Counted from the stretch's first letter, positions 43,102-55,550 are shown. The stretch: 60,209 bases of DNA from Caryophanales bacterium (GCA_016287865.1 JAEEXP010000004.1:1-60209), one strand, 5' to 3'. The notes: generated by a model not told the origin, from the sequence alone. Translations and numbers: made by a program.

Positions 43102-43884
43102 TTAAACCTCAATAAACTCTGTTGGTTTAGACCTACCACTAACAACTATATTTAAGTTCTCTAATGATACATTAATAGACTTAAAATATCTTTTATATTC
43201 AGATAAAGCTAATAGATCACTATTACATTCTTGAGATAAGTGGAATAACACTAGATTCTTTGTCTTTGGACCTTTAAGTTTAGAGAATAACTCTGCGCTT
43301 AAGGCATTAGACAAGTGTCCATATTCCCCTAAAATTCGCTCTTTCAGTAGCCAAGGACGTTGACTATTTAAAAGTAGTGCTTCTTCATGATTTGATTCAA
43401 GAATATATGCATCTGAATTAACTAGTTCTTCATTTACATTTAATATTCCAGTAGCAGTAATATAAGTTAGTTTCTTATCTAAAGATATAAAACTAAATCC
43501 CATAGGATCAGCTGAGTCATGTGATACACTAAATGTCTTCACTGTCATATCATCAACTATGAATTCTGTGTCAGGCTTAATAAATTTAAAGTTAATTGGA
43601 GAGATTTGTTCCTTTACTTTTATATCCATATTTTGATATGCCTTTTTTGACATATATATAGTTGAATCATATTTCTTCACAATTGAGGCTAGACCTGATA
43701 TATGGTCCGTGTGTTCATGAGTAATAAATATAGCATCTATTTGATCTACAAAAGCATTTAATAAATTTAATCTATTATATAAAGCTCTAACACCTAATCC
43801 AGCATCAAGTAGATAACATCTACCATTATTTATTAAGATTGTCGCATTACCTTGTGAAGATGAACCTAGTACTGATAATTTCAT
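43102..43884 (-). CDS. WalJ/YycJ-type metallo-beta-lactamase fold protein with an altered metal site
   Basis: This 260-residue protein matches WalJ (YycJ): VLGSSSQGNATILI at the start, THEHTDHISGL near 55, SVSHDSADPMGF near 118, SDAYILESNHE near 154 and LGEYGHLSN near 184. In WalJ-like proteins the bridging metal ligand Asp lies in a TDTG motif; here the site reads ITATG (near residue 141), Ala for Asp by a single GAT to GCT change. One or both metals may be lost. WalJ is a 5'-3' exonuclease-like protein linked to WalRK in Firmicutes; no walRK is here. It is first in a three-gene operon with an extended -10 promoter. Confidence 0.88.
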   Translation of the reverse strand: MKLSVLGSSSQGNATILINNGRCYLLDAGLGVRALYNRLNLLNAFVDQIDAIFITHEHTDHISGLASIVKKYDSTIYMSKKAYQNMDIKVKEQISPINFKFIKPDTEFIVDDMTVKTFSVSHDSADPMGFSFISLDKKLTYITATGILNVNEELVNSDAYILESNHEEALLLNSQRPWLLKERILGEYGHLSNALSAELFSKLKGPKTKNLVLFHLSQECNSDLLALSEYKRYFKSINVSLENLNIVVSGRSKPTEFIEV

Positions 43885-44013: not shown

Positions 44014-44042
44014 TTGTCATTAATAAATATTAATGATATATT
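44014..44042 (+). promoter_or_regulatory. Promoter with operator-like dyad, foldase-like operon
   Basis: TTGTCA (44014-44019) and TATATT (44037-44042) are 17 bases apart. A perfect inverted repeat (TCATTAAT at 44017-44024, ATTAATGA at 44029-44036) fills the spacer. The first ATG (44081) follows AAAGGAG. Confidence 0.6.
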
Positions 44043-44080: not shown

Positions 44081-47000
44081 ATGGGGAATTTTGGAAAAAG
44101 ATTACTTATAATTCTTCTAGCTGTTACAGTGATCGTCGCACTTGCAGTTGGAGGTAACGCATATCAAAACAGAAACAAAAACCATAGAGTTTCTAAAGAG
44201 AGTGCGGTTGTCTATGAAGGACAATATAATAATGTTTCATACAAAGTTACAAAAGGTGATGTATGGAAAACTATGCTCAGTTCATCACCTATGTCTACTA
44301 TCAATGAAATCATAGACAAACAATTACTTAAGAGTTACATTGATGCTCAAACTGATGAAGCAGTTCAATCAGAAATCGAGTATTTAATTTATAACTCTAA
44401 TGATCAAGATGAAATCAATAAGATTAAAGCTGATCAAACTAAAGACGAACAATTAAAACAATCATTCTATAACAAGCTTTACGTTCTTGGCTATAAACAA
44501 AATGGTGAAGAAGGTCATAAGATTGAAGATTACGCTAAGTTAATGCTCGCTTATGGCGAATATGCTAAGTATAGACTTGAAAACGGATTAAAGATTGGTT
44601 CTCTTGAACCTAAACTAGATGATGAATCTATCAAATCTGCATTAAAGAATGAAAAGAAAGACACTTTTGCTATTACTATTAGATTTAATAGTGAAAAGGA
44701 AGCTACTGATTTATATAAGAAATTTAAATTAGCAGTTGTAAATTCTTCTTTAAGAAAATATGTTGGTGATTCTTTATACGTTTTAGATAAGAATACTGAT
44801 GGTTCTTATTATCTCGACATCCTTTTAAAACCTGTTAAATTAGAAGTTGAAGTTGAACTTGAAAATGGTGAAAAGAAAACTGTTAATGTACCAAACGTTA
44901 AAGGTTTAAAGAAGACTGATGATAAATATGTATGGGATAACACTAGACCTGGATGGGAATACGATGGCAATACATATCACTTTGTATTCGAAAGCGATAA
45001 AGCAGATGAAAATGGTTCTTATGCCGCAACTACTTATGATGCATCTACTGCTGCTTCTAACGCCGTTGACTTTGATGATGTAACAAGCTTCTATGCTTCT
45101 AGTTCTTCTATGAACACAGCAGTATTATCAAATGACAACTTCTTAGAAGTATATCTCTATCTTTATAACGAAGTTTATGAAAATCAAAGATATGAACTTC
45201 CATCACTTGCTGATAGCATTGATGTATCTGGAAACAATCTTGAAATATTCTCTTCAATCTTTGGTATTGAACTTAATGCTAATGATTTATTCGAAGCAGA
45301 AGACGTTGCTAAAATTAATGCAGCTATTAAAGCTTACAACTTAGTAATTGTTGAATGGGAAGAGGAAGGCGTTAAACATCAAGAAGTAAGAAAATACGTT
45401 GGTAATGACGAATACGTAGTATCTGTAGTTGATGGTGTTGCTGAAAGCAAGAACGGTTTTGCTGTATACAAGAAAGCAAATGGTGAAAGCGTTCCTAACT
45501 ATAAGATTCTCGTTGATGAAAATGGTGCACCAGTACTTGATAAGGATAAAAACTTCCAATATGTACTTGATGAAAACGGTGAAAGAATTGCTAATGATTC
45601 TAAGAAATCTATTAATGATCAAACTGTATTCACAAGAGAAAACACAATTACTCCAAGCCATATTCTTCTCTACTCTGCATTCTTTAATTTATATGTAGAT
45701 TATGAAGCTGAATATTCTGCTGAATACAAGCTATTCGCTTCTCAAGTTAAAGAATTCTTATATTTCAACTATGAAAAATTAAACTCTAAGAGAAGTGATG
45801 TTGCAAAACAAATCTTCACAACACTTACATTCGAAGAATCTGCTACTGGTGGTTATTTAACAAAGGCTACTTCTGTTACTGCAGCTAATAGTTCCGAAAC
45901 CCCTTATTATATGATTCTCAAACTTGGAAACTCAACATACTCTGATCCAACAGAAGCTGAAATCCAAGCATACAAAGAAAAACAAATAAGTAATTATATT
46001 AAGACTGCTAACCTTCCACAAATGGCTGCTGCAGAACTCAGAAAAGAAGCTGGTATTCAATTATTCGATGAATATTTTGGATATGAATATGCATCTATTC
46101 TTAATAAGAACGACGACACTAATAAATATGGTGTATCTGATTCTTCTGAATACTACAAAGTTAAAGGTTACAACAATAAAGTATTAGCTAAAACAACTAA
46201 GGCTGTAACTGTTAATGGCCAAGAAGTTGGTAAGATTAAAGTTACTTCTGATGAATTATACAATTACTCACTTGAATCAAGCGGTTCTTCTTACATCTCT
46301 AACGCTATTTTAAATAAAGTTCTTCTTTCTATGAATGACTTTGAAACTATTCATGGTAAATCAAGAAATTATTTAACAAGCAAGAACTGGAAGATGCAAG
46401 AATACGCTCAAGCTACTCAAAGTTATAACTATGCATTTGAATACTATAAGAACATGTATTCTCAATATGGAATCAGTTATTATAAGTCAATTAATGAATT
46501 CTTATATAACTATGGTTCTAGAAACTTCGACGATATGGTTCTTGCATTTGAAAGAGCTACAATGAGAAATGTATTCTTATACAATGCACTTGTTGGTGAT
46601 TTATTCGAAAACAAGAATGGTTATGTTCACAGCTTATCAAATTATGCATTAACTTCTACTGATCCAACAGTTGAAGGTTCTACTGATAAATATTTATTTG
46701 GTGGAGATAAGTTCAAAGATTTATACAATGACTACTTCTCTGCTAATGTATTCCATGTATTATTCTATGTAGATTATAACGAAGATGGAACACCAGATGA
46801 TTACGATGCATTCCTCAAACAATTTGATGAAACAACTGGCCACAAATATTTAATGGACGATAACGGCGATCCACTAACACTTAATGATTGGAATAAAGCT
46901 GTAAGCGAACTCCTTGATGAAATCTATGATTATATCAATAGTAACTTAGATTGGTCATCATCAAGTATTTCACTCTCTAACTTCATTAAAGAATACAATG

Positions 47001-47623
47001 AATCATCACTTAGAGATGGCGATTACATCGATTATAAGAAACTTGGTTTACAACTTGAATTCGAATCACTCGGTGAAGTAACTAACTTCAACGTAACTAA
47101 TTATGTTGAAAGATTCAGAGAAGGCGTTAAGAAAGTATATGCTAAACTTGAAAAAGTTGATAAAGACTTACTCGGTTATTCTATTGCTGATGAATTAACA
47201 CCATCTGAATTCGGTTTACACTTAATCTTCGAAACAGCAGGTTCTAACTATGTTAAACCTACATTCAAATATACTGATACAAATACTAACTATTCAGAAT
47301 TCTTAAGGAATGACAATGAAGAAGTTACAGATGCTCAAATCGCAATCTATATCTTAAGAGCTGTATATACTAATATTTATGGCGATACAGATAACCCAGA
47401 AAAGAATGCTGGATTCCCATATCCAAATATTCCATCTGAACTCGATAAAGCATTCAGCTTATACTTCGAATCTTATATCAACACAATGTTAGATACTTCT
47501 ACTTCTTATCATTCTAACTACATTATGCTTAACCAATTAGCTAAAGAAGCTAGCGATTATCAAAAGGAATTCAAAGAGCTTAGAGATATTTACTACTCAA
47601 TGCTCTTTGGATCATTAGCTTAG
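44081..47623 (+). CDS. Giant extracytoplasmic PrsA/SurA-like protein (1180 residues)
   Basis: No family is recognised with certainty. A membrane anchor (about residues 5-26) is followed by an extracytoplasmic region. Near 48-80 SYKVTKGDVWKTM and INEIIDKQLLKSYI resemble the N-terminal chaperone segment of PrsA/SurA, and a similar block VNGQEVGKIKVTSDELYNY starts near 707. The segment 890-1050 has the landmarks of a parvulin domain: FHVLFYVDYN for xHILV, FIKEYNESS near 967 for LAKEYSxD, and GLHLIFETAG near 1044 for GYHIIxV. The next gene is a paralogue with the same landmarks. I infer a giant, divergent foldase/chaperone. ATG 44081 has AAAGGAG; an upstream ATG at 44033 has none. Codon use is rich in AAC, TTC and ATC, as in highly expressed genes such as fba. 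Confidence 0.6.
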   Translation: MGNFGKRLLIILLAVTVIVALAVGGNAYQNRNKNHRVSKESAVVYEGQYNNVSYKVTKGDVWKTMLSSSPMSTINEIIDKQLLKSYIDAQTDEAVQSEIEYLIYNSNDQDEINKIKADQTKDEQLKQSFYNKLYVLGYKQNGEEGHKIEDYAKLMLAYGEYAKYRLENGLKIGSLEPKLDDESIKSALKNEKKDTFAITIRFNSEKEATDLYKKFKLAVVNSSLRKYVGDSLYVLDKNTDGSYYLDILLKPVKLEVEVELENGEKKTVNVPNVKGLKKTDDKYVWDNTRPGWEYDGNTYHFVFESDKADENGSYAATTYDASTAASNAVDFDDVTSFYASSSSMNTAVLSNDNFLEVYLYLYNEVYENQRYELPSLADSIDVSGNNLEIFSSIFGIELNANDLFEAEDVAKINAAIKAYNLVIVEWEEEGVKHQEVRKYVGNDEYVVSVVDGVAESKNGFAVYKKANGESVPNYKILVDENGAPVLDKDKNFQYVLDENGERIANDSKKSINDQTVFTRENTITPSHILLYSAFFNLYVDYEAEYSAEYKLFASQVKEFLYFNYEKLNSKRSDVAKQIFTTLTFEESATGGYLTKATSVTAANSSETPYYMILKLGNSTYSDPTEAEIQAYKEKQISNYIKTANLPQMAAAELRKEAGIQLFDEYFGYEYASILNKNDDTNKYGVSDSSEYYKVKGYNNKVLAKTTKAVTVNGQEVGKIKVTSDELYNYSLESSGSSYISNAILNKVLLSMNDFETIHGKSRNYLTSKNWKMQEYAQATQSYNYAFEYYKNMYSQYGISYYKSINEFLYNYGSRNFDDMVLAFERATMRNVFLYNALVGDLFENKNGYVHSLSNYALTSTDPTVEGSTDKYLFGGDKFKDLYNDYFSANVFHVLFYVDYNEDGTPDDYDAFLKQFDETTGHKYLMDDNGDPLTLNDWNKAVSELLDEIYDYINSNLDWSSSSISLSNFIKEYNESSLRDGDYIDYKKLGLQLEFESLGEVTNFNVTNYVERFREGVKKVYAKLEKVDKDLLGYSIADELTPSEFGLHLIFETAGSNYVKPTFKYTDTNTNYSEFLRNDNEEVTDAQIAIYILRAVYTNIYGDTDNPEKNAGFPYPNIPSELDKAFSLYFESYINTMLDTSTSYHSNYIMLNQLAKEASDYQKEFKELRDIYYSMLFGSLA

Positions 47624-47637
47624 GAGGAGGCAAACAT

Positions 47638-50139
47638 ATGAAAAAATTATTAAGTTTAGTTTTAGTATTAGTATTAGGCCTCTCTCTTACAGCTTGTAAG
47701 AAAGAAACTACTAAGACTGATTACGTTAATCCACAAGTAACTGAAGGTAATGTTAAAGCCTTCGAAACTACTGTTAATGAAAAGACATTATCATTAACTA
47801 AGAATGAAATTTATAACACTATTAGATCTAACGCTGGTTTATCTCTTCTTCTTGAAGAATTAGATTCACAACTCTTAACTGAAGTTGAAGCTACTGAAGA
47901 TTTAGTTAAAGCTAGAAGAAATAGACTTATCTATGGTGTACAAACTGATGCAGAAGTTGCAGCATTATCAGCTGAAGATAAAGCTGAATGTGAAGAACAT
48001 TTTGCTCAACAAATGAATTACATGGGCTTAATTACTGAAGCACAACAAACTGCTTATATCAATTTATTAGCTAAAAGAGATAAAGTTACTAAGAATTACT
48101 TAGTTGCTGAAGCTAATGATTCTAAGAGTGATTTCTATGTATCAAATTCTACTCTTGAATCTTACTACAACGATTATATTTTCGAAGCTGATAGAAGAGC
48201 TATCGTTATCGACTTCGATAACCAAAGTTCATTAAGAAACACTCTTAAAGCTTATAACCTCGTTATCTTCAACTCTGAACTTAGAGGATATAAGGGAACT
48301 GAACCAATCGAAAACGTTACTCAAAGTCAATTAAACTTCGATAATACTGAAGTCTTAACTGACGCACAAATCTTAGCTAAATTCGTTGAAATCTATAACA
48401 ATGTTTATAGCTATAAGACTCAAGTTACAGTTGATAGCGTTGCTACTGAACAACAATTTGTAAGAAACTATAAGACTTTATCTGAAAATGCATCTGCTCT
48501 TGCTAAATACATTTTCAAGATGAACAAGAATGATTACACTTATACTACTTATAGATCTACTACTTCTTTAGGTACAACTTATTCATTAATCTTCGCTCTT
48601 GATGAAAACACTAAAGCTGATTTCACTGCGGAACAAAGAGAAGCTATTCTTGAAAAGTACTTAAATGATAGAATCTATCAAAGCTACTATCAAAACCTCG
48701 CTTTAAATGAATTAAGAACTGCTAAAGGTCTTAAGTTCTATGATTTATATTTAGCTTATGACTATTATGTAAATGTTGATCAATCATTTGATTATAGCAA
48801 AGCTGAAGGTGACAGCGAATTATTAGTATCTGCTGGTAACGTTACTATCAAAGCTAATGATTATTACAACTACGCTATGAATATGAGCCAAGCTAGATTT
48901 GTAACTCTTGCACTTCTTCAAAAAGCTGTAGAACAAACTAGAAGTTATTCAATCGCTTATGGAACTGAAAGAGATTTAAATAAGAATGGTTCATTAAGAA
49001 AGATTTATTATTTCGATAAGACTAAATCTGATTTAACAACTAACTATAAAGCTGAAACTTATGGTTCAGAAGAAATGTATTTATATCAAAAGTATGGTGT
49101 TACATCTGTTGAAGCTGAAACATTAAAAGATACAATTTCTGACCTTAAGGGTTGGTTCGTTGCTGATGCAGTTCTTTCTTCTGATGAGAACGGTGTATAT
49201 TCATTCGTTTCTGAATTCGAAGCTAAAGCTCAAGAAATCATCGATGAATACTACAACAACTTCTACAATTTAAAGCCTTATAGACTCACAGTATATACAG
49301 ACTATAACCAAGACTATGTTGCAGATGATCTAGCTAATGTTAAAGCTAATCCAGATCAATATGGAATTAGCAACGCTACAGCTCAATCAATCGACAACAA
49401 GCTTGCTCAACTCTACACTGTTATTACTTCTAAGTTTACAGATGAAACTAAGGAAGAAGACGTTGAAACTGTATTAAGCGATTTCGTTAAAGAATATAAC
49501 GCATCATCAATTACTGATGGCGTATATAGCGAATATAAGAAACTCGGTTTAAGAGTAGCTTATAAGAAGATCTCTGCTTCTTCATCTTCTACTGCTGATG
49601 TAACATATCAAAACTATGGTTATAATCAAACTGCAGAAGTTAATCAAGCATTAAAACAATTATTCGCAAACGTTGTATCTGATTCAACTAAAGCTTATTA
49701 CTACTTAAATGAAATGGTTACTGATGTTAATGGTGCACACTTATACGTAACTACTAAAGGCGGCGTAACAAGAATGCCATCATATAAATATCAACCAAGC
49801 GAATCTGAAGTTGGCAAATATAATGCTGGTGCTGTAAACGCAGAAGATAAACCTTCATTAACTCAAGTTGGTAGTGCAATCAATTTATACTTATATTCAT
49901 TAATTGCAAGTAAGGCTGACCTTGCTAAGACTAACTTCAAAGTTGAAGGTTATCCACTAGAATTCCCAGGCAGTGTTGATGTAACAATCTACAGAACTGC
50001 TGTTGGAAACTATTTCATTAACGATAACTTCATTTATGGACTTATCGCTCAAGAAGTTGCTAAGACACTCACAGATGCTAACCAAAAGGCAGCATTCGAA
50101 AAAGTATCTGATTACTACTTCTTCGAACTTAATGAATAA
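47638..50139 (+). CDS. Giant PrsA/SurA-like lipoprotein (833 residues), paralogue of the previous gene
   Basis: A lipoprotein signal (MKKLLSLVLVLVLGLSLTAC, lipobox LTAC, Cys20) exports and anchors the protein outside the cell. Near residues 43-75 ETTVNEKTLSLTKNEIYN and LLLEELDSQLL recall the PrsA/SurA N-domain, with a second similar block VSAGNVTIKANDYYNYAM near 396. Parvulin-like landmarks follow: YRLTVYTDYNQDY near 547, FVKEYNASS near 615, KKLGLRVAYK, and GAHLYVTTKGG near 698. The order and several phrases (KEYN-SS, YKKLGL, VDYN/TDYN) match the upstream protein, so the two are paralogues. GGAGGAGG precedes the ATG 14 bases after the first gene. A membrane-anchored plus lipid-anchored foldase pair is my inference. 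Confidence 0.62.
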   Translation: MKKLLSLVLVLVLGLSLTACKKETTKTDYVNPQVTEGNVKAFETTVNEKTLSLTKNEIYNTIRSNAGLSLLLEELDSQLLTEVEATEDLVKARRNRLIYGVQTDAEVAALSAEDKAECEEHFAQQMNYMGLITEAQQTAYINLLAKRDKVTKNYLVAEANDSKSDFYVSNSTLESYYNDYIFEADRRAIVIDFDNQSSLRNTLKAYNLVIFNSELRGYKGTEPIENVTQSQLNFDNTEVLTDAQILAKFVEIYNNVYSYKTQVTVDSVATEQQFVRNYKTLSENASALAKYIFKMNKNDYTYTTYRSTTSLGTTYSLIFALDENTKADFTAEQREAILEKYLNDRIYQSYYQNLALNELRTAKGLKFYDLYLAYDYYVNVDQSFDYSKAEGDSELLVSAGNVTIKANDYYNYAMNMSQARFVTLALLQKAVEQTRSYSIAYGTERDLNKNGSLRKIYYFDKTKSDLTTNYKAETYGSEEMYLYQKYGVTSVEAETLKDTISDLKGWFVADAVLSSDENGVYSFVSEFEAKAQEIIDEYYNNFYNLKPYRLTVYTDYNQDYVADDLANVKANPDQYGISNATAQSIDNKLAQLYTVITSKFTDETKEEDVETVLSDFVKEYNASSITDGVYSEYKKLGLRVAYKKISASSSSTADVTYQNYGYNQTAEVNQALKQLFANVVSDSTKAYYYLNEMVTDVNGAHLYVTTKGGVTRMPSYKYQPSESEVGKYNAGAVNAEDKPSLTQVGSAINLYLYSLIASKADLAKTNFKVEGYPLEFPGSVDVTIYRTAVGNYFINDNFIYGLIAQEVAKTLTDANQKAAFEKVSDYYFFELNE

Positions 50140-50150
50140 TTAAACATATT

Positions 50151-50186
50151 AAAAGAGATATTAGCCTCAAAACTAATATCTCTTTT
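50151..50186. terminator. Terminator after the foldase-like pair
   Basis: Perfect 14-base arms (50151-50164 and 50173-50186, core GAGATATTAG) have an eight-base loop and a T-run on the plus strand; it may also serve the convergent yhaM operon. Confidence 0.85.
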
Positions 50187-50203: not shown

Positions 50204-51124
50204 TTATTTAGATAATTTATGTTTATAAAACTTCTCTTTATCGTTTGTTTGAATTGGTTCAGTAAACTCAAGTGGTTTAGTTCTTGATAGAGCTTCTACT
50301 ACTGGTTGGATTTTCGCATCGCTCATGTCACATAAATGAACTATTAAAGCTTCAATTATTTGAGGACGTCTTGGGGAACCAAAATCTGGTTCACTATGAT
50401 GGCTTAAAATCACATGAGCTAAGAGTTTTGCCTCTTCAGTATCACTATAACCTAGACGTTCTGCGCTTGTGAATACTAAGGCAGTGCCTAATGAGATATG
50501 TCCAAATAGTTTTCCTTCAAGAGTAAATTTACCATCACTCATTTCAATAATCTTAGCGATATCATGGAGAATTATTCCTGAATATACTAAATCTTTATTG
50601 ATATGAGGATATAACTTTATATAAGCTTTTCCAAGCATGAGGACACTGTGTGTATGATACATTAGTCCTCCTTTATATGCGTGATGGAATTTAACTGCGG
50701 CTGGAGATACGATAAAGTCATTTTTATATTTATTATAGATATCAAGAGTAATATCCTTAATAATCTTATTTTCAATAGAATCAATTGAATCCTCTATATC
50801 TTTGATATAGGCTTCCTCATTAATTACGATACCGCCGAAAAATTTGTCTTTTAGCGCACGTTTATCATCATCTCTCATATCTTTATCATCATCAAGCGAA
50901 TCAAGCGATAAAACCGCAATATAGTTCTTGTCTTTAAATACTTCACCCTTTCCATGGAAGTGATAGATTTTTCCAACTTCTACTTCCATCTTTTTAGATA
51001 TTCTTAAAACCACAGTATTTAATTCAGAGTCTTTAACTATGATTGAATGAGATTCATATGTTGAATCATTTATAGCTTCAACTAGTCCATATAAATCATA
51101 GATTTCTTGTAGTTTAATTTCCAT
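50204..51124 (-). CDS. yhaM: YhaM-type 3'-5' exonuclease (OB fold + HD domain)
   Basis: This 306-residue protein has an N-terminal OB-like domain (about 15-85) and a C-terminal HD domain with FHHAYKGGLMYHTHSV near 146, GIILHDIAKI near 181 and HVILSHHSEPDFGSPRRP near 236. This is the YhaM layout, a manganese-dependent 3'-5' exoribonuclease of Gram-positive bacteria. The start overlaps the end of pulA by 11 bases, so translation is coupled. It is the last gene of the lipoprotein-cca-pulA-yhaM operon. Confidence 0.92.
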   Translation of the reverse strand: MEIKLQEIYDLYGLVEAINDSTYESHSIIVKDSELNTVVLRISKKMEVEVGKIYHFHGKGEVFKDKNYIAVLSLDSLDDDKDMRDDDKRALKDKFFGGIVINEEAYIKDIEDSIDSIENKIIKDITLDIYNKYKNDFIVSPAAVKFHHAYKGGLMYHTHSVLMLGKAYIKLYPHINKDLVYSGIILHDIAKIIEMSDGKFTLEGKLFGHISLGTALVFTSAERLGYSDTEEAKLLAHVILSHHSEPDFGSPRRPQIIEALIVHLCDMSDAKIQPVVEALSRTKPLEFTEPIQTNDKEKFYKHKLSK

Positions 51125-53159
51125 TTATCTCTCTCCTATAAATCGATAAGCCAATTCCTTCTACTTCATTTGAATTATGTTTTAAATTAGATAATTCTAA
51201 ATTAAATCCTTCAAGGTTAAATTCATGACTATCTAAATCATTCTTAAATAGAATGGCTATTTCTTCATCATTATCTTTTAAAGTATAAAGAATCATTGAA
51301 TCATTTAATCTAATAACGTCAGTATTCTCTTTAATCTCAGTTTGAGTATCATATAAGAATACATTATGGTTCTTTCTAAATTGAATGATTTTCTTAATGA
51401 AATCTATATATTCTTTATTATCTTTAACTAAATCCCATCTTAAACTATTAAGTTCATCACCAACGTTATATGTATTAGAATTATAGTTTTTACTCATAAA
51501 TAATTCTTGGCCTTGATGAATAAATGGAATTCCAAGTGAAAGGATATTCATAGAAGTCGCGAGAATTGATCTAGCTTTAAGTTCATCTTTAGGCATATCT
51601 CTTTCTTCATTTGAAATTGAATCCACAAGTGTCATATCATCGTGACATTCTACATAGTTAATTGATTGAGATGCATATTTAAATAAATATCTATCTATAC
51701 AAGAACCTGTGAGAGTATATTTAAGTGTATCAAAATCATTATATCCTTTAGAGAACGCCTTAACTGCGTTTCTTTCTCTATCATTAAAGAAACCCACAGA
51801 GTGAATAACGTTTCTATTAAACATATGGGCTAGTGAATCAGCTTGGTTTGAATAAACCATCTTCCATCCTTCACCAAATATTAAGATATTTTTATCGATG
51901 TAATCAGTTTCTTGAGCGATATCATTAATAGTTCCAAGATCAATTAAACCCATAAGGTCAAATCTAAAACCATCAATACGATACTCATTAAGCCAATAAA
52001 GAAGTGAATCCATAATAAATTTATGAACCATATTTCTCATACTTGATACATCGTTCTTACAACCTGAATATTCAGTTCTAATACCTTCATGGTTATAGTT
52101 ATAGAAATATCCAGGACATAATATTTCAAATGGGAATGTATCAGGATCAAACACATGATTATATACAGCGTCCATAATGACGCATAGTCCTTCTTTATGA
52201 ATAATATCTATCGCATATTTTAAATCATTTATTCTTTGATAAGGATCATCTGGGTTTAATGTGTATAGTCCAGATGGAACATTTAATTCTCTTGGGTTAT
52301 ATCCCCAGTTATATTTCTTAAATCTATCTAGTTCATCTACATCATCAAATGAATAGAAAGGCATAAGTTCAATATGAGTAATACCTAAATCTTTTAAGTA
52401 TTTAAGTCCAAATCCTTGATTATTTAAAATATCATCCACAAAGAACTTATAAGTACTTCTTTCATTTTTTTCTTTAAAGGCTGAAGTAAAATCTCTAAAT
52501 GAAGTTTCATAAATAATAGATTTAAGTTTATTATCAGGTCTATTATTCTTAAGATACTTCATTTGATAGAACTTTGATTTATCTACCACATAATTATATG
52601 TAGAATTCGCATTAGATGAGATAGCGTAAGGGTCTAGAGTCACCTTGGTTTCACCATTCACATAGACATGATATCTATATTTATATCTATCTAAGTCTTT
52701 ATCAATCACAACTCTCCATACGCCTTGATTTTTATATTTAACCTCAACAAATTCAGTTTCACCTTTTGGAGATACTAATTCTAGAGTAATCTTTTTAGCG
52801 ATAGGACTCCAAATCTTAAATTTAGTAAATTCTTTACTATAAACATATCCCAAATCATTCTTTTTATAATAATAGATTTGGTCAAAGAGCGGACTTCTAA
52901 CTATTTTACCTTCAAATAGTTCTGTCTTATTATTAAATTCATCTGAAACATAATATGTTTGAGGCAAATCTATATACGCATCAAAAGTAACGATTAGTTT
53001 TTCAAAATCGCCAAGAGATATGGTTTCTTCTATATTTAAATCAATAATTTCATTATTTCCCTTTAAGAAATATTTATTATTTGGATGATAATTATTCTTA
53101 TCGATAATAATAGTTATTTCATCAAAATCATCCAAATAAGCATAAAAAGTATTTTTCAC
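51114..53159 (-). CDS. pulA: Type I pullulanase (alpha-1,6-glucan debranching enzyme)
   Basis: This 681-residue GH13 enzyme has N-terminal beta domains (about 1-200, the second CBM48-like) and a catalytic barrel with the pullulanase signature KYNWGYNPRELNVPSG near 282, VIMDAVYNHVF near 323, the nucleophile in YRIDGFRFDLMGL near 395, the acid in ILIFGEGWKM near 424 and YVECHDDMTLVD near 502. No signal peptide is present, so it works on internal glycogen or imported branched maltodextrin. It abuts cca with no gap. No other glycogen gene is in the window. Confidence 0.93.
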   Translation of the reverse strand: MKNTFYAYLDDFDEITIIIDKNNYHPNNKYFLKGNNEIIDLNIEETISLGDFEKLIVTFDAYIDLPQTYYVSDEFNNKTELFEGKIVRSPLFDQIYYYKKNDLGYVYSKEFTKFKIWSPIAKKITLELVSPKGETEFVEVKYKNQGVWRVVIDKDLDRYKYRYHVYVNGETKVTLDPYAISSNANSTYNYVVDKSKFYQMKYLKNNRPDNKLKSIIYETSFRDFTSAFKEKNERSTYKFFVDDILNNQGFGLKYLKDLGITHIELMPFYSFDDVDELDRFKKYNWGYNPRELNVPSGLYTLNPDDPYQRINDLKYAIDIIHKEGLCVIMDAVYNHVFDPDTFPFEILCPGYFYNYNHEGIRTEYSGCKNDVSSMRNMVHKFIMDSLLYWLNEYRIDGFRFDLMGLIDLGTINDIAQETDYIDKNILIFGEGWKMVYSNQADSLAHMFNRNVIHSVGFFNDRERNAVKAFSKGYNDFDTLKYTLTGSCIDRYLFKYASQSINYVECHDDMTLVDSISNEERDMPKDELKARSILATSMNILSLGIPFIHQGQELFMSKNYNSNTYNVGDELNSLRWDLVKDNKEYIDFIKKIIQFRKNHNVFLYDTQTEIKENTDVIRLNDSMILYTLKDNDEEIAILFKNDLDSHEFNLEGFNLELSNLKHNSNEVEGIGLSIYRREINGN

Positions 53160-54323
53160 TTAAGCTATAGTTCCTTTCAAATACTCAACTAATTTTTGAG
53201 TATCATTTTCTACCTTATTATATATAACTGCCTTTTCAAGTTCAGTTATATAATCTTTAATATCTTTTGAATCTTCAATCTTTAAAGCATCTTTAATATC
53301 ATTTCCAGTGATATTTAATTCTTTAGCTTTCTTAATTGGAAGATTATTTACGAGTTCATCTAAATCACTTAGTTTATATGGGCAACTCTTAATTAATGAC
53401 AAAGAGGCTTGAGCTTCATATAAAGCTTGAATATCTCTATCAAAAATATCAAATGGAGTGAGTTTTCTTTCTTTAAGTAAATTCATAAAGAACATTGCAT
53501 CTTCAATATATCTTCTTTCCTTTTTTGTGAATAACACATCATTTGTGACTTCGCCTTTAAGGAATGAAGCTAAAACCATTAGATTCATAAACTTAAATGG
53601 TTTGTATGCGACGTTAATTAAACCTAAAGCTTCGTTGATATCTGGAAGTGATTTAAAGATTCCTGAATCAAGCATTTGAGGAAGCACACTCTTAAAGTAT
53701 GGAGCTTCCACTGTTTCTTCAAGTTCAGTTCTTATACGTTCTTTAGATAAGTATTTAACTAGATTTGCGTTAGATACAATTCCCTCAAAAGTTAATGAAT
53801 CAATCTTAAAATCTAAACGTGCCGCAAAGCGGAACGCTCTAAACATTCTTAATGCATCTTCATTAAATCTTCTTTTAGGAGAACCAACACATCTTAATAT
53901 ATGAAGTTTTAAATCATTAATTCCGCCAACGTAATCAATTAATTTTAAATCTTTATCCATGCACATAGCATTCACAGTAAAGTCTCTTCTTTTAACGTCT
54001 TCTTTTAAAGACAAAGAAACTTTAGATTCTGGATGTCTATGATCTTTATAAGATTTATCTACTCTATAAGTGGTGATTTCATATACATAATCACCTTCTC
54101 TAACGTTTACAGTCTTAAACTTTAATGATTTAGAGAAATTATTTGGGAATAGTTCTTGAACTACGTTTGGTAAAGCGTTGGTTGTGATATCAATATCTTT
54201 TCCTTCCATTCCAAGCTGATAGTCCCTAACAAAACCTCCAACCATATAAGCTTCATAGCCTTTTTCGTTGAGTTTTTCGAGTATTTTAATTGCGCCAGCT
54301 AATAATTTATTATCGTTTTCCAT
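53160..54323 (-). CDS. cca: CCA tRNA nucleotidyltransferase
   Basis: This 387-residue class II enzyme adds CCA to tRNA 3' ends. Motifs are MVGGFVRDYQLG near residue 26, KDIDITTNALP near 37 (DxD metal site), KRRDFTVNAM near 91, EDALRMFRAFRFAARLDF near 140 and SKERIRTELEE near 174. Length is normal. It would be essential here because the tRNA-Gln in this window lacks an encoded CCA. The gene follows the lipoprotein by two bases and abuts pulA. Confidence 0.95.
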   Translation of the reverse strand: MENDNKLLAGAIKILEKLNEKGYEAYMVGGFVRDYQLGMEGKDIDITTNALPNVVQELFPNNFSKSLKFKTVNVREGDYVYEITTYRVDKSYKDHRHPESKVSLSLKEDVKRRDFTVNAMCMDKDLKLIDYVGGINDLKLHILRCVGSPKRRFNEDALRMFRAFRFAARLDFKIDSLTFEGIVSNANLVKYLSKERIRTELEETVEAPYFKSVLPQMLDSGIFKSLPDINEALGLINVAYKPFKFMNLMVLASFLKGEVTNDVLFTKKERRYIEDAMFFMNLLKERKLTPFDIFDRDIQALYEAQASLSLIKSCPYKLSDLDELVNNLPIKKAKELNITGNDIKDALKIEDSKDIKDYITELEKAVIYNKVENDTQKLVEYLKGTIA

Positions 54324-54325
54324 AT

Positions 54326-55540
54326 TTATTCCTGTTTAAACATATCAAGTAAAGCTTTTACTTCATCAAAATCAACTACAAAGTAGTTATCTTTATTTGT
54401 ATCAAATTCAACATCGGTTTCATGAGAAGTCTCAACATCAATACTAGCTAATTTAATAGCGCCAGCATATAAAGATAAACCTATTGAGTTAGAAGCACCT
54501 GTTTCTTTAGTTTGAGTAAAGATTAATTTAGCATTAATCATTGCATCAACATCTAAATCAATATCAACTTTTAATGATTCAAGTAGTTCTTTTACTCCAG
54601 TTATTTCAAATTCATAACCAAATTCAGTTTTAGTCTCATCATCTATTACTTTAATTGCATTAGTTCTTTCTTTTAAATCCTTAACAACTGGATCAACCAT
54701 AGAATTAATTTCAGCGTTTAAAGATAATAATTTCTTAGTTTGACCTTCGTATTCTTTTTTCTTTATTGTATAAATGATAGTTTTTACAACATCAGCAGTT
54801 CTATCAACATTAATCTTTCCATCAGAATCCATTAATCCAATTAAAGTTAATGTTCTAATTAGATTAGTAGTTGCGGCACCTACAGTTCTATTTGAACTTA
54901 ATAAAATAGTAGCTAATAGTCCACGAATTGTAGTAGATAAGAATGAAGATATACCTCCAAGATCAATATCAATATAATCAGTAAGTTTGAAGTTTAAAAG
55001 ACTAGTCATATTTACTGCATATTTAATATCTTTAAGTTCTTTATAATCTTCTGAAGCTAAATATTCATCTTTATCTAATGCTTCTTTTTCAATCTTTCTT
55101 GCAGCAAGCACATCTTTAGATACGCTAACAAATAAGAAATCTTCTGTTTCTGAATTTTCTAAATCTTTAAGACTTAATATTACAGAAATATCAGGATTAA
55201 GACCAGTTCCTTTATCTAATTTAAAATTAAATAATAGTTTTCCGGCTTTGTCTTCAGTTAAATCAATACCAATAGTGGCTTTAGTTGTTGAACCTTTTAA
55301 ACTAAATGTATAATAAGCAACTCTAGATTTATTAGATTTAGCCGTCTTTATCATTTCTTTATAGTAATAATCTGTAAGTTCATCATTAGTTAATGTTGTG
55401 GTAGGTTTAGTAGTTTGATTTGACTTTGTTGTAGTCGTACTAGAAACAGGGCTAGTTTTTGTAGCCTCAGTTTTCTTATCACAAGATATAAGAGTTAATG
55501 ATAATAAACATAATAATACTGCAATAAAAATCTTCTTCAT
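54326..55540 (-). CDS. Lipoprotein of unknown function
   Basis: This 404-residue protein has a lipoprotein signal (MKKIFIAVLLCLLSLTLISC, Cys20), a Ser/Thr/Lys-rich linker (about 22-50) and a globular domain with no family I recognise. Features are YYTFSLKGSTTKATIGIDL near 80-98 and DIDLGGISSFLSTTIRGLL near 196-214; many segments could form a beta-rich lipid- or ligand-binding domain like LolA or LppX, but that is a guess. I chose ATG 55540, since AGGG sits upstream at usable distance; GTG 55549 is an alternative. It heads the cca-pulA-yhaM operon with its own promoter. Confidence 0.75.
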   Translation of the reverse strand: MKKIFIAVLLCLLSLTLISCDKKTEATKTSPVSSTTTTKSNQTTKPTTTLTNDELTDYYYKEMIKTAKSNKSRVAYYTFSLKGSTTKATIGIDLTEDKAGKLLFNFKLDKGTGLNPDISVILSLKDLENSETEDFLFVSVSKDVLAARKIEKEALDKDEYLASEDYKELKDIKYAVNMTSLLNFKLTDYIDIDLGGISSFLSTTIRGLLATILLSSNRTVGAATTNLIRTLTLIGLMDSDGKINVDRTADVVKTIIYTIKKKEYEGQTKKLLSLNAEINSMVDPVVKDLKERTNAIKVIDDETKTEFGYEFEITGVKELLESLKVDIDLDVDAMINAKLIFTQTKETGASNSIGLSLYAGAIKLASIDVETSHETDVEFDTNKDNYFVVDFDEVKALLDMFKQE

Positions 55541-55550
55541 AATAATCACC

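Follow-up and report, generated by a model that had tools for sequence, protein, structure and literature searches.

After translocation, proteins of Gram-positive bacteria are folded chiefly with the help of PrsA, a factor whose importance in Bacillus is linked to the cell wall. The PrsA proteins of Bacillus, Listeria and Staphylococcus (Protein Data Bank (PDB) entries 4WO7 and 5HTF) are exported homodimers anchored on the outer membrane face, usually as lipoproteins, whose chains, of approximately 290-330 residues, form one unit with an NC domain around a parvulin domain. The gene adjoins yhaM in Listeria and Staphylococcus and is near yhaM in Bacillus (PMC3921577). Active-site residues have been listed for several PrsA proteins, and some accepted ones are without the parvulin histidines (PMC12524980). 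PpiC of Enterococcus faecium (PDB 9IBN), a single-unit member of the PrsA family that forms homodimers via domain swapping, is without these histidines and has reported peptidyl-prolyl isomerase (PPIase) and foldase activity (PMC12524980). SurA of the Gram-negative periplasm has two parvulin-type domains and one SurA_N-type chaperone core that serves both. The locus described here encodes two giant proteins, P1 and P2, of a Caryophanales bacterium (GCA_016287865.1). It is found in a 60,209-nucleotide stretch of DNA (JAEEXP010000004.1:1-60209) that was analysed as a whole and is termed the window.

P1 and P2 are very likely divergent extracytoplasmic foldases of the PrsA type, with two PrsA-like units fused in each chain. 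They share with PrsA the export, the membrane anchor, the NC domain around a parvulin-like domain and the yhaM neighbour. They differ in length (833 and 1180 residues instead of a single-unit chain of about 300), in their additional insertions, in the acidic loop of the second parvulin-like domain and in being encoded side by side as one transmembrane-anchored and one lipid-anchored protein. Both open reading frames were confirmed at the positions given in a preliminary description made from the sequence alone:

44081..47623, + strand: P1, a two-unit PrsA-like protein of 1180 amino acids with an N-terminal transmembrane anchor
47638..50139, + strand: P2, a two-unit PrsA-like lipoprotein of 833 amino acids

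Together they are a two-gene operon of homologous exported proteins, with a spacing of 14 bp between the P1 stop and the P2 start at 47638. The preliminary description made a relation between the two proteins a point to be checked, and they are indeed homologous (BLASTP expectation value (E) 2e-15) and alignable end to end.

Two PrsA-like units in each chain

The proposal that P1 and P2 are remote PrsA/parvulin foldases is borne out by profile-profile comparison over both halves, by the predicted structure of P2 and by the position of the genes next to yhaM. The parts of the two proteins are as follows:

44084..44155, + strand: P1 hydrophobic helix (residues 2-25), resembling an uncleaved anchor without a lipobox, from the sequence and from helix 2-25 in the model
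44081..46150, + strand: first PrsA-like unit of P1 (residues ~1-690); profile columns 43-207 match PrsA with E 3.1e-9
44768..45760, + strand: P1 insertions (residues ~230-350 and 380-560), missing in P2 in the alignment; predicted local distance difference test score (pLDDT) mostly below 50
46178..47248, + strand: second PrsA-like unit of P1 (residues ~700-1056); profile columns 700-1088 match PrsA with E 2.9e-11
47686..47697, + strand: P2 lipobox LTAC (residues 17-20, with Cys20), from the sequence
47638..48789, + strand: first PrsA-like unit of P2 (residues 1-384), with an N-domain, a parvulin-like domain that has neither histidine, and C-terminal helices
48790..49791, + strand: second PrsA-like unit of P2 (residues 385-718), from profile comparison and model
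49792..50136, + strand: C-terminal helical tail of P2 (residues 719-833), without a PrsA match and of low confidence in the model

For the PrsA profile, 23 proteins of the class that contain a Rotamase domain were used. The P2 family matches it as a whole with a probability (Prob) of 98.8 and E 5.7e-17. The first half (residues 1-384) matches with Prob 98.9 and E 1.4e-17 over the N-domain, the parvulin domain and the C-terminal helices, almost the entire length of PrsA. The second half (from residue 385) matches with Prob 98.5 and E 2.2e-15, reaching the GYHII motif. Reversed and column-shuffled profiles of the P2 family give Prob below 1%, and homologues occur in most genomes of the order; the observation is far above chance. 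The P1 family displays two matches to the PrsA profile (Prob 97.2 and 96.1). Its first parvulin-like part is interrupted by low-confidence insertions, both in the alignment and in the model, and no fold was identified for the insertions at residues 230-350 and 380-560, where model confidence is very low.

Because each half matches PrsA independently, each giant is read as a pair of PrsA-like units followed by a helical tail at the C-terminus. The SurA_N-like helix blocks that the preliminary description saw twice per protein are confirmed, and an NC (SurA_N-like) chaperone domain is found twice in P1 and in P2 by profile-profile and structure matches. Its count of two SurA_N blocks and one parvulin, however, has to be revised to two PrsA units with two N-domains and two parvulin-like domains, the first of the latter without the histidines.

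Two PrsA matches are also found in pools of proteins from families f7, f10, f12/16 and f18. The reversed control of the f12/16 pool reaches 13%, and this pool is therefore weaker evidence. Pfam still calls the second unit of the f10 proteins Rotamase, with best E values between 2e-7 and 6e-13, and this links the giant family to accepted parvulins.

An AlphaFold2 model of P2 was made from 26 aligned sequences, PrsA sequences being excluded. It has a mean pLDDT of 76 and consists of two helix-plus-sheet units. All of its 17 top PDB matches belong to PrsA or PrsA-like foldases, with E below 0.001 for 12; structures of the SurA and PEB4 type rank lower. The structural check therefore points to the PrsA type for P2, with weak PrsA/PPIase matches for P1.

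From their sequences, both proteins appear to be exported and to stay attached to the outside of the membrane. The difference in anchoring seen at the outset stands: at the N-terminus of P1 there is a hydrophobic helix but no lipobox, and this transmembrane helix would hold the protein, and P2, with its LTAC motif, would be held by lipid at Cys20. A gene for signal peptidase II (LspA) is encoded in the genome. Two cyclophilin matches occur on contigs C61 and C80 of genome G000; C80 also has a second, partial LspA match and may be foreign, 6.7% contamination having been reported for G000.

The place of prsA in the order

A gene adjacent to yhaM is typical of prsA, though not defining, and the operon is convergent with such a gene:

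50204..51124, - strand: yhaM-like 3'-5' exoribonuclease, the conserved prsA neighbour

In the sampled genomes of the class where yhaM and a giant or Rotamase gene are on the same contig, 44 of 48 giants (the nearest being taken where there are two) and 24 of 27 Rotamase proteins are found within 6 kb of yhaM, mostly in convergent orientation. A Rotamase domain match was obtained in none of 61 genomes of the order, and in 63 of 149 genomes of the class. From the yhaM position and the absence of Rotamase matches in the order, the giants occupy the place of prsA. Homology and context suggest that they probably fold cell-surface proteins in place of PrsA.

A penicillin-binding transpeptidase was not found in 60 of the 61 genomes of the order. 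The cells are thus very probably wall-less, and the foldases would act on a bare membrane surface. The single match, in genome G050, may be contamination. A wall-less group would then retain the prsA gene slot with a protein that became a two-unit giant missed by domain databases, such that these bacteria appear to be without any parvulin foldase. Names can now be given to large surface proteins that are widespread but so far unannotated.

Active-site residues and the probable foldase role

Equivalents of the parvulin active-site histidines are found in the second units:

46754..46756, + strand: P1 His892 (FHVLFYVD), equivalent of the first parvulin active-site histidine; His in 13 of 14 P1-type proteins
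47219..47221, + strand: P1 His1047 (GLHLIF), equivalent of the second; His in 14 of 14 P1-type proteins
49738..49740, + strand: P2 His701, equivalent of the second parvulin histidine

The landmark motifs described earlier as shared are present in both proteins, as FHVLFYVDYN, KEYNESS and GLHLIF in P1 and YRLTVYTDYN, KEYNASS and GAHLYV in P2, but they are not identical: the first P2 motif is without the histidine, its position being Arg549, and GAHLYV stands in place of GLHLIF. In the second unit of P2 proteins of family f1, the window's own, the first histidine is found in 0 of 7 and the second in 6 of 7. In the first unit, the first-histidine position is occupied by Ala, Ser or Thr (once Gly), and the second mostly by Tyr, otherwise by Ser, Thr, Phe or Val. 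As the second unit of P1-type proteins keeps both histidines and P2 is without the first, a catalytic role is possible for P1, and P2 would be chiefly a chaperone. Since PpiC is reportedly active without the histidines, this division of labour is only a suggestion; by the same analogy, histidine loss does not appear to exclude function.

Several observations weigh against a two-unit PrsA-type foldase. Searches of P1 and P2 against Pfam, NCBIfam and PDB sequence models gave none that recognises either protein; matches such as Cas9_C_2 (E 0.006) were worse than the cut-off and were dismissed as chance. Pfam Rotamase models likewise do not recognise a parvulin domain in P1 or P2, where it is detectable only by profile-profile comparison and fold. 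Catalytic residues are gone from the first unit and partly from P2, and the C-terminal tail is left unexplained by a PrsA layout. Template modelling scores (TM-scores) between the P2 model and PrsA are modest, 0.33-0.51 of target, and this is attributed to different relative positions of the domains. For P1 the model is poor, with a pLDDT of 65, and the top seven PDB matches, all PrsA or PPIase structures, do not reach E 0.001. A direct comparison of first and second halves gave no match (Prob 0.9); copying of one unit into the other is accordingly not proposed, and the units may have arisen by duplication or by fusion of two diverged genes. Activity, dimer geometry and clients of the giants are predictions from homology and context.

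Fast divergence, the large size and the insertions of P1 would also be expected if P1 and P2, though derived from PrsA, had given up folding and used its fold in a structural or adhesive role at the surface of wall-less cells. The histidines missing from the first unit, and the first of them missing from the second unit of P2, fit such a history, as does the absence of penicillin-binding proteins from 60 of 61 genomes, which removes one class of clients known in walled bacteria. This is nevertheless rather unlikely, as the P1-type second unit has kept its parvulin histidines almost without exception, nothing else in the order resembles PrsA, and the gene position is kept in nearly all genomes.

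Two parvulin domains and a SurA_N-type chaperone domain are also features of SurA, and SurA and PEB4-type structures do appear, at lower rank, among the structure matches. P1 and P2 could thus be SurA-like chaperones with a single substrate-binding core and inserted parvulin domains. This is improbable: each half has its own N-domain and its own parvulin-like domain rather than one core serving two, PrsA structures rank far above SurA, and the gene neighbourhood is that of prsA and unrelated to that of SurA. The SurA layout was rejected as fitting worse than the two-unit PrsA layout. An artefact of low complexity or biased composition, to which the empty single-sequence searches and the deviating composition of several relatives might point, is scarcely credible given that reversed and column-shuffled profiles find no match and that structure and gene neighbourhood agree independently.

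As two-unit PrsA-type foldases, P1 and P2 would be held on the outer membrane face by the transmembrane helix and by lipid, respectively, and would receive proteins leaving the Sec channel. Within each chain, the two units may pair as a pseudo-dimer that mimics, in covalently linked form, the bowl-shaped dimer of PrsA. The first unit, with its parvulin-like domain lacking both histidines, would serve as a chaperone surface. The second unit of P1 is likely a prolyl isomerase, and P2, with Arg in place of the first histidine, would act mainly as a chaperone. The first reading of the fold was essentially right, and prolyl isomerase activity is predicted. The many natural variants in the family could help to determine whether PrsA works as a dimer, whether isomerase activity matters and whether calcium can act directly on a parvulin.

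Acidic loop, relatives and flanking features

In Pin1, the loop after the first parvulin strand reads phosphorylated substrates. The corresponding loop of the second parvulin-like domain of the giants is acidic:

46772..46798, + strand: P1 acidic loop DYNEDGTPD (residues 898-906), EF-hand-like, after parvulin strand 1
49300..49326, + strand: P2 acidic loop DYNQDYVAD (residues 555-563), EF-hand-like

The consensus, D-x-[DN]-x-[DN]-[G or Y/F]-x-x-[DN], follows directly on the first strand. Asp555 and Asp563 of P2 are invariant across the 25 sequences of alignment A1. A loose form of the pattern is found at the equivalent position in 25 of 26 P2-type proteins, and in 12 of 14 P1-type proteins (11 of those at the equivalent position), compared with 0 of 23 PrsA proteins and a chance expectation of ~0.05 per shuffled protein. 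By alignment, the loop is present in f12/16 and most f7 proteins and absent from f18. The P1 loop fits Dx[DN]xDG plus a further acidic ligand fully, P2 has Tyr for Gly, and the P2 model shows a strand-loop-helix around the loop. Loops of the Dx[DN]xDG type bind calcium in many folds, including strand-loop-helix arrangements (PMC3123361). Calcium binding is plausible on these grounds. That the second parvulin-like domain carries an EF-hand-type DxDxDG calcium site in place of the substrate-reading loop of Pin1 is put forward tentatively, as somewhat doubtful. If so, extracellular calcium would switch a double-PrsA foldase of naked, wall-less cells, in a structural or a regulatory way.

The pair was found in related genomes. 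The preliminary description knew of no such family; the giants are widespread in the class and not unique to this genome. Within the order, homologues occur in 48 of 61 genomes with P2 as query and in 56 of 61 with P1. Family f1 has the tandem pair, f2 usually a single copy of ~840 amino acids, and f3 two unlinked copies of ~870 and 1100-1150 amino acids. The diverse alignment A1 has no stretch conserved enough for a pattern scan, which was restricted to f3, the one family with known organism names; several of these are Candidatus Izemoplasmatales bacteria. A profile search detected the same giants in families f5, f7, f12, f16 and f18 of the class, and more weakly in f10; those of f7 and f18 are often a transmembrane-anchored plus lipid-anchored pair. 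The giant family was not described in literature on PrsA-like proteins of Acholeplasma, Tenericutes and Izemoplasma, of which coverage was incomplete.

In trees, the f1 pair clusters together, as do the copies of f3, f7 and f18. One ancient duplication common to f1 and f3 was rejected by the approximately unbiased (AU) test (p 0.005 and 0.0003; 22 sequences), a result to be taken with caution as branches are long. On the basis of this test, the transmembrane-anchored plus lipid-anchored pair seems to have arisen more than once, f1 and its sister family f3 having duplicated independently. A catalytic/chaperone pair would then have been re-invented through independent duplications.

PrsA pairs of family f21, of the same class (loci L113, L115, L119-L121, L124-L127), consist of adjoining genes for a transmembrane-anchored Rotamase protein and then a lipoprotein with a degenerate parvulin. 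Unlike the giants, these proteins are of ordinary size with one unit each. No description of such a pair was met in the literature, though no search was aimed at them. In families f9 and f20 (loci L129-L133) there are two adjoining lipoproteins of ~520-630 amino acids, the first part of which is PrsA-like and the second part without identification.

The remaining features of the locus are signals and flanking genes:

44014..44042, + strand: promoter-like TTGTCA-17-TATATT with extended TG, upstream of P1; a consensus match only
47622..47629, + strand: AGGAGGAG, ribosome-binding site of P2, overlapping the P1 stop
50151..50186, no strand assigned: terminator-like hairpin between the operon and the convergent yhaM, common to both
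43102..43884, - strand: metallo-beta-lactamase-fold protein (YycJ-like) on the opposite flank, conserved in several families

The P1 start is the ATG at 44081, preceded by AAAAGGAG, and the longest open reading frame runs from 44033; AGGAGG is ahead of the P2 start. The number of promoter-like sites across the region is not above chance. A block of yhaM, a pullulanase-like gene and the gene for the CCA-adding enzyme is kept across the order (window 50204-55549; loci L061-L070). In genome G016 (locus L066, 10115-15037), a lipoprotein-like gene of 1640 amino acids follows the long giant at the expected yhaM position, and yhaM is ~8 kb off.

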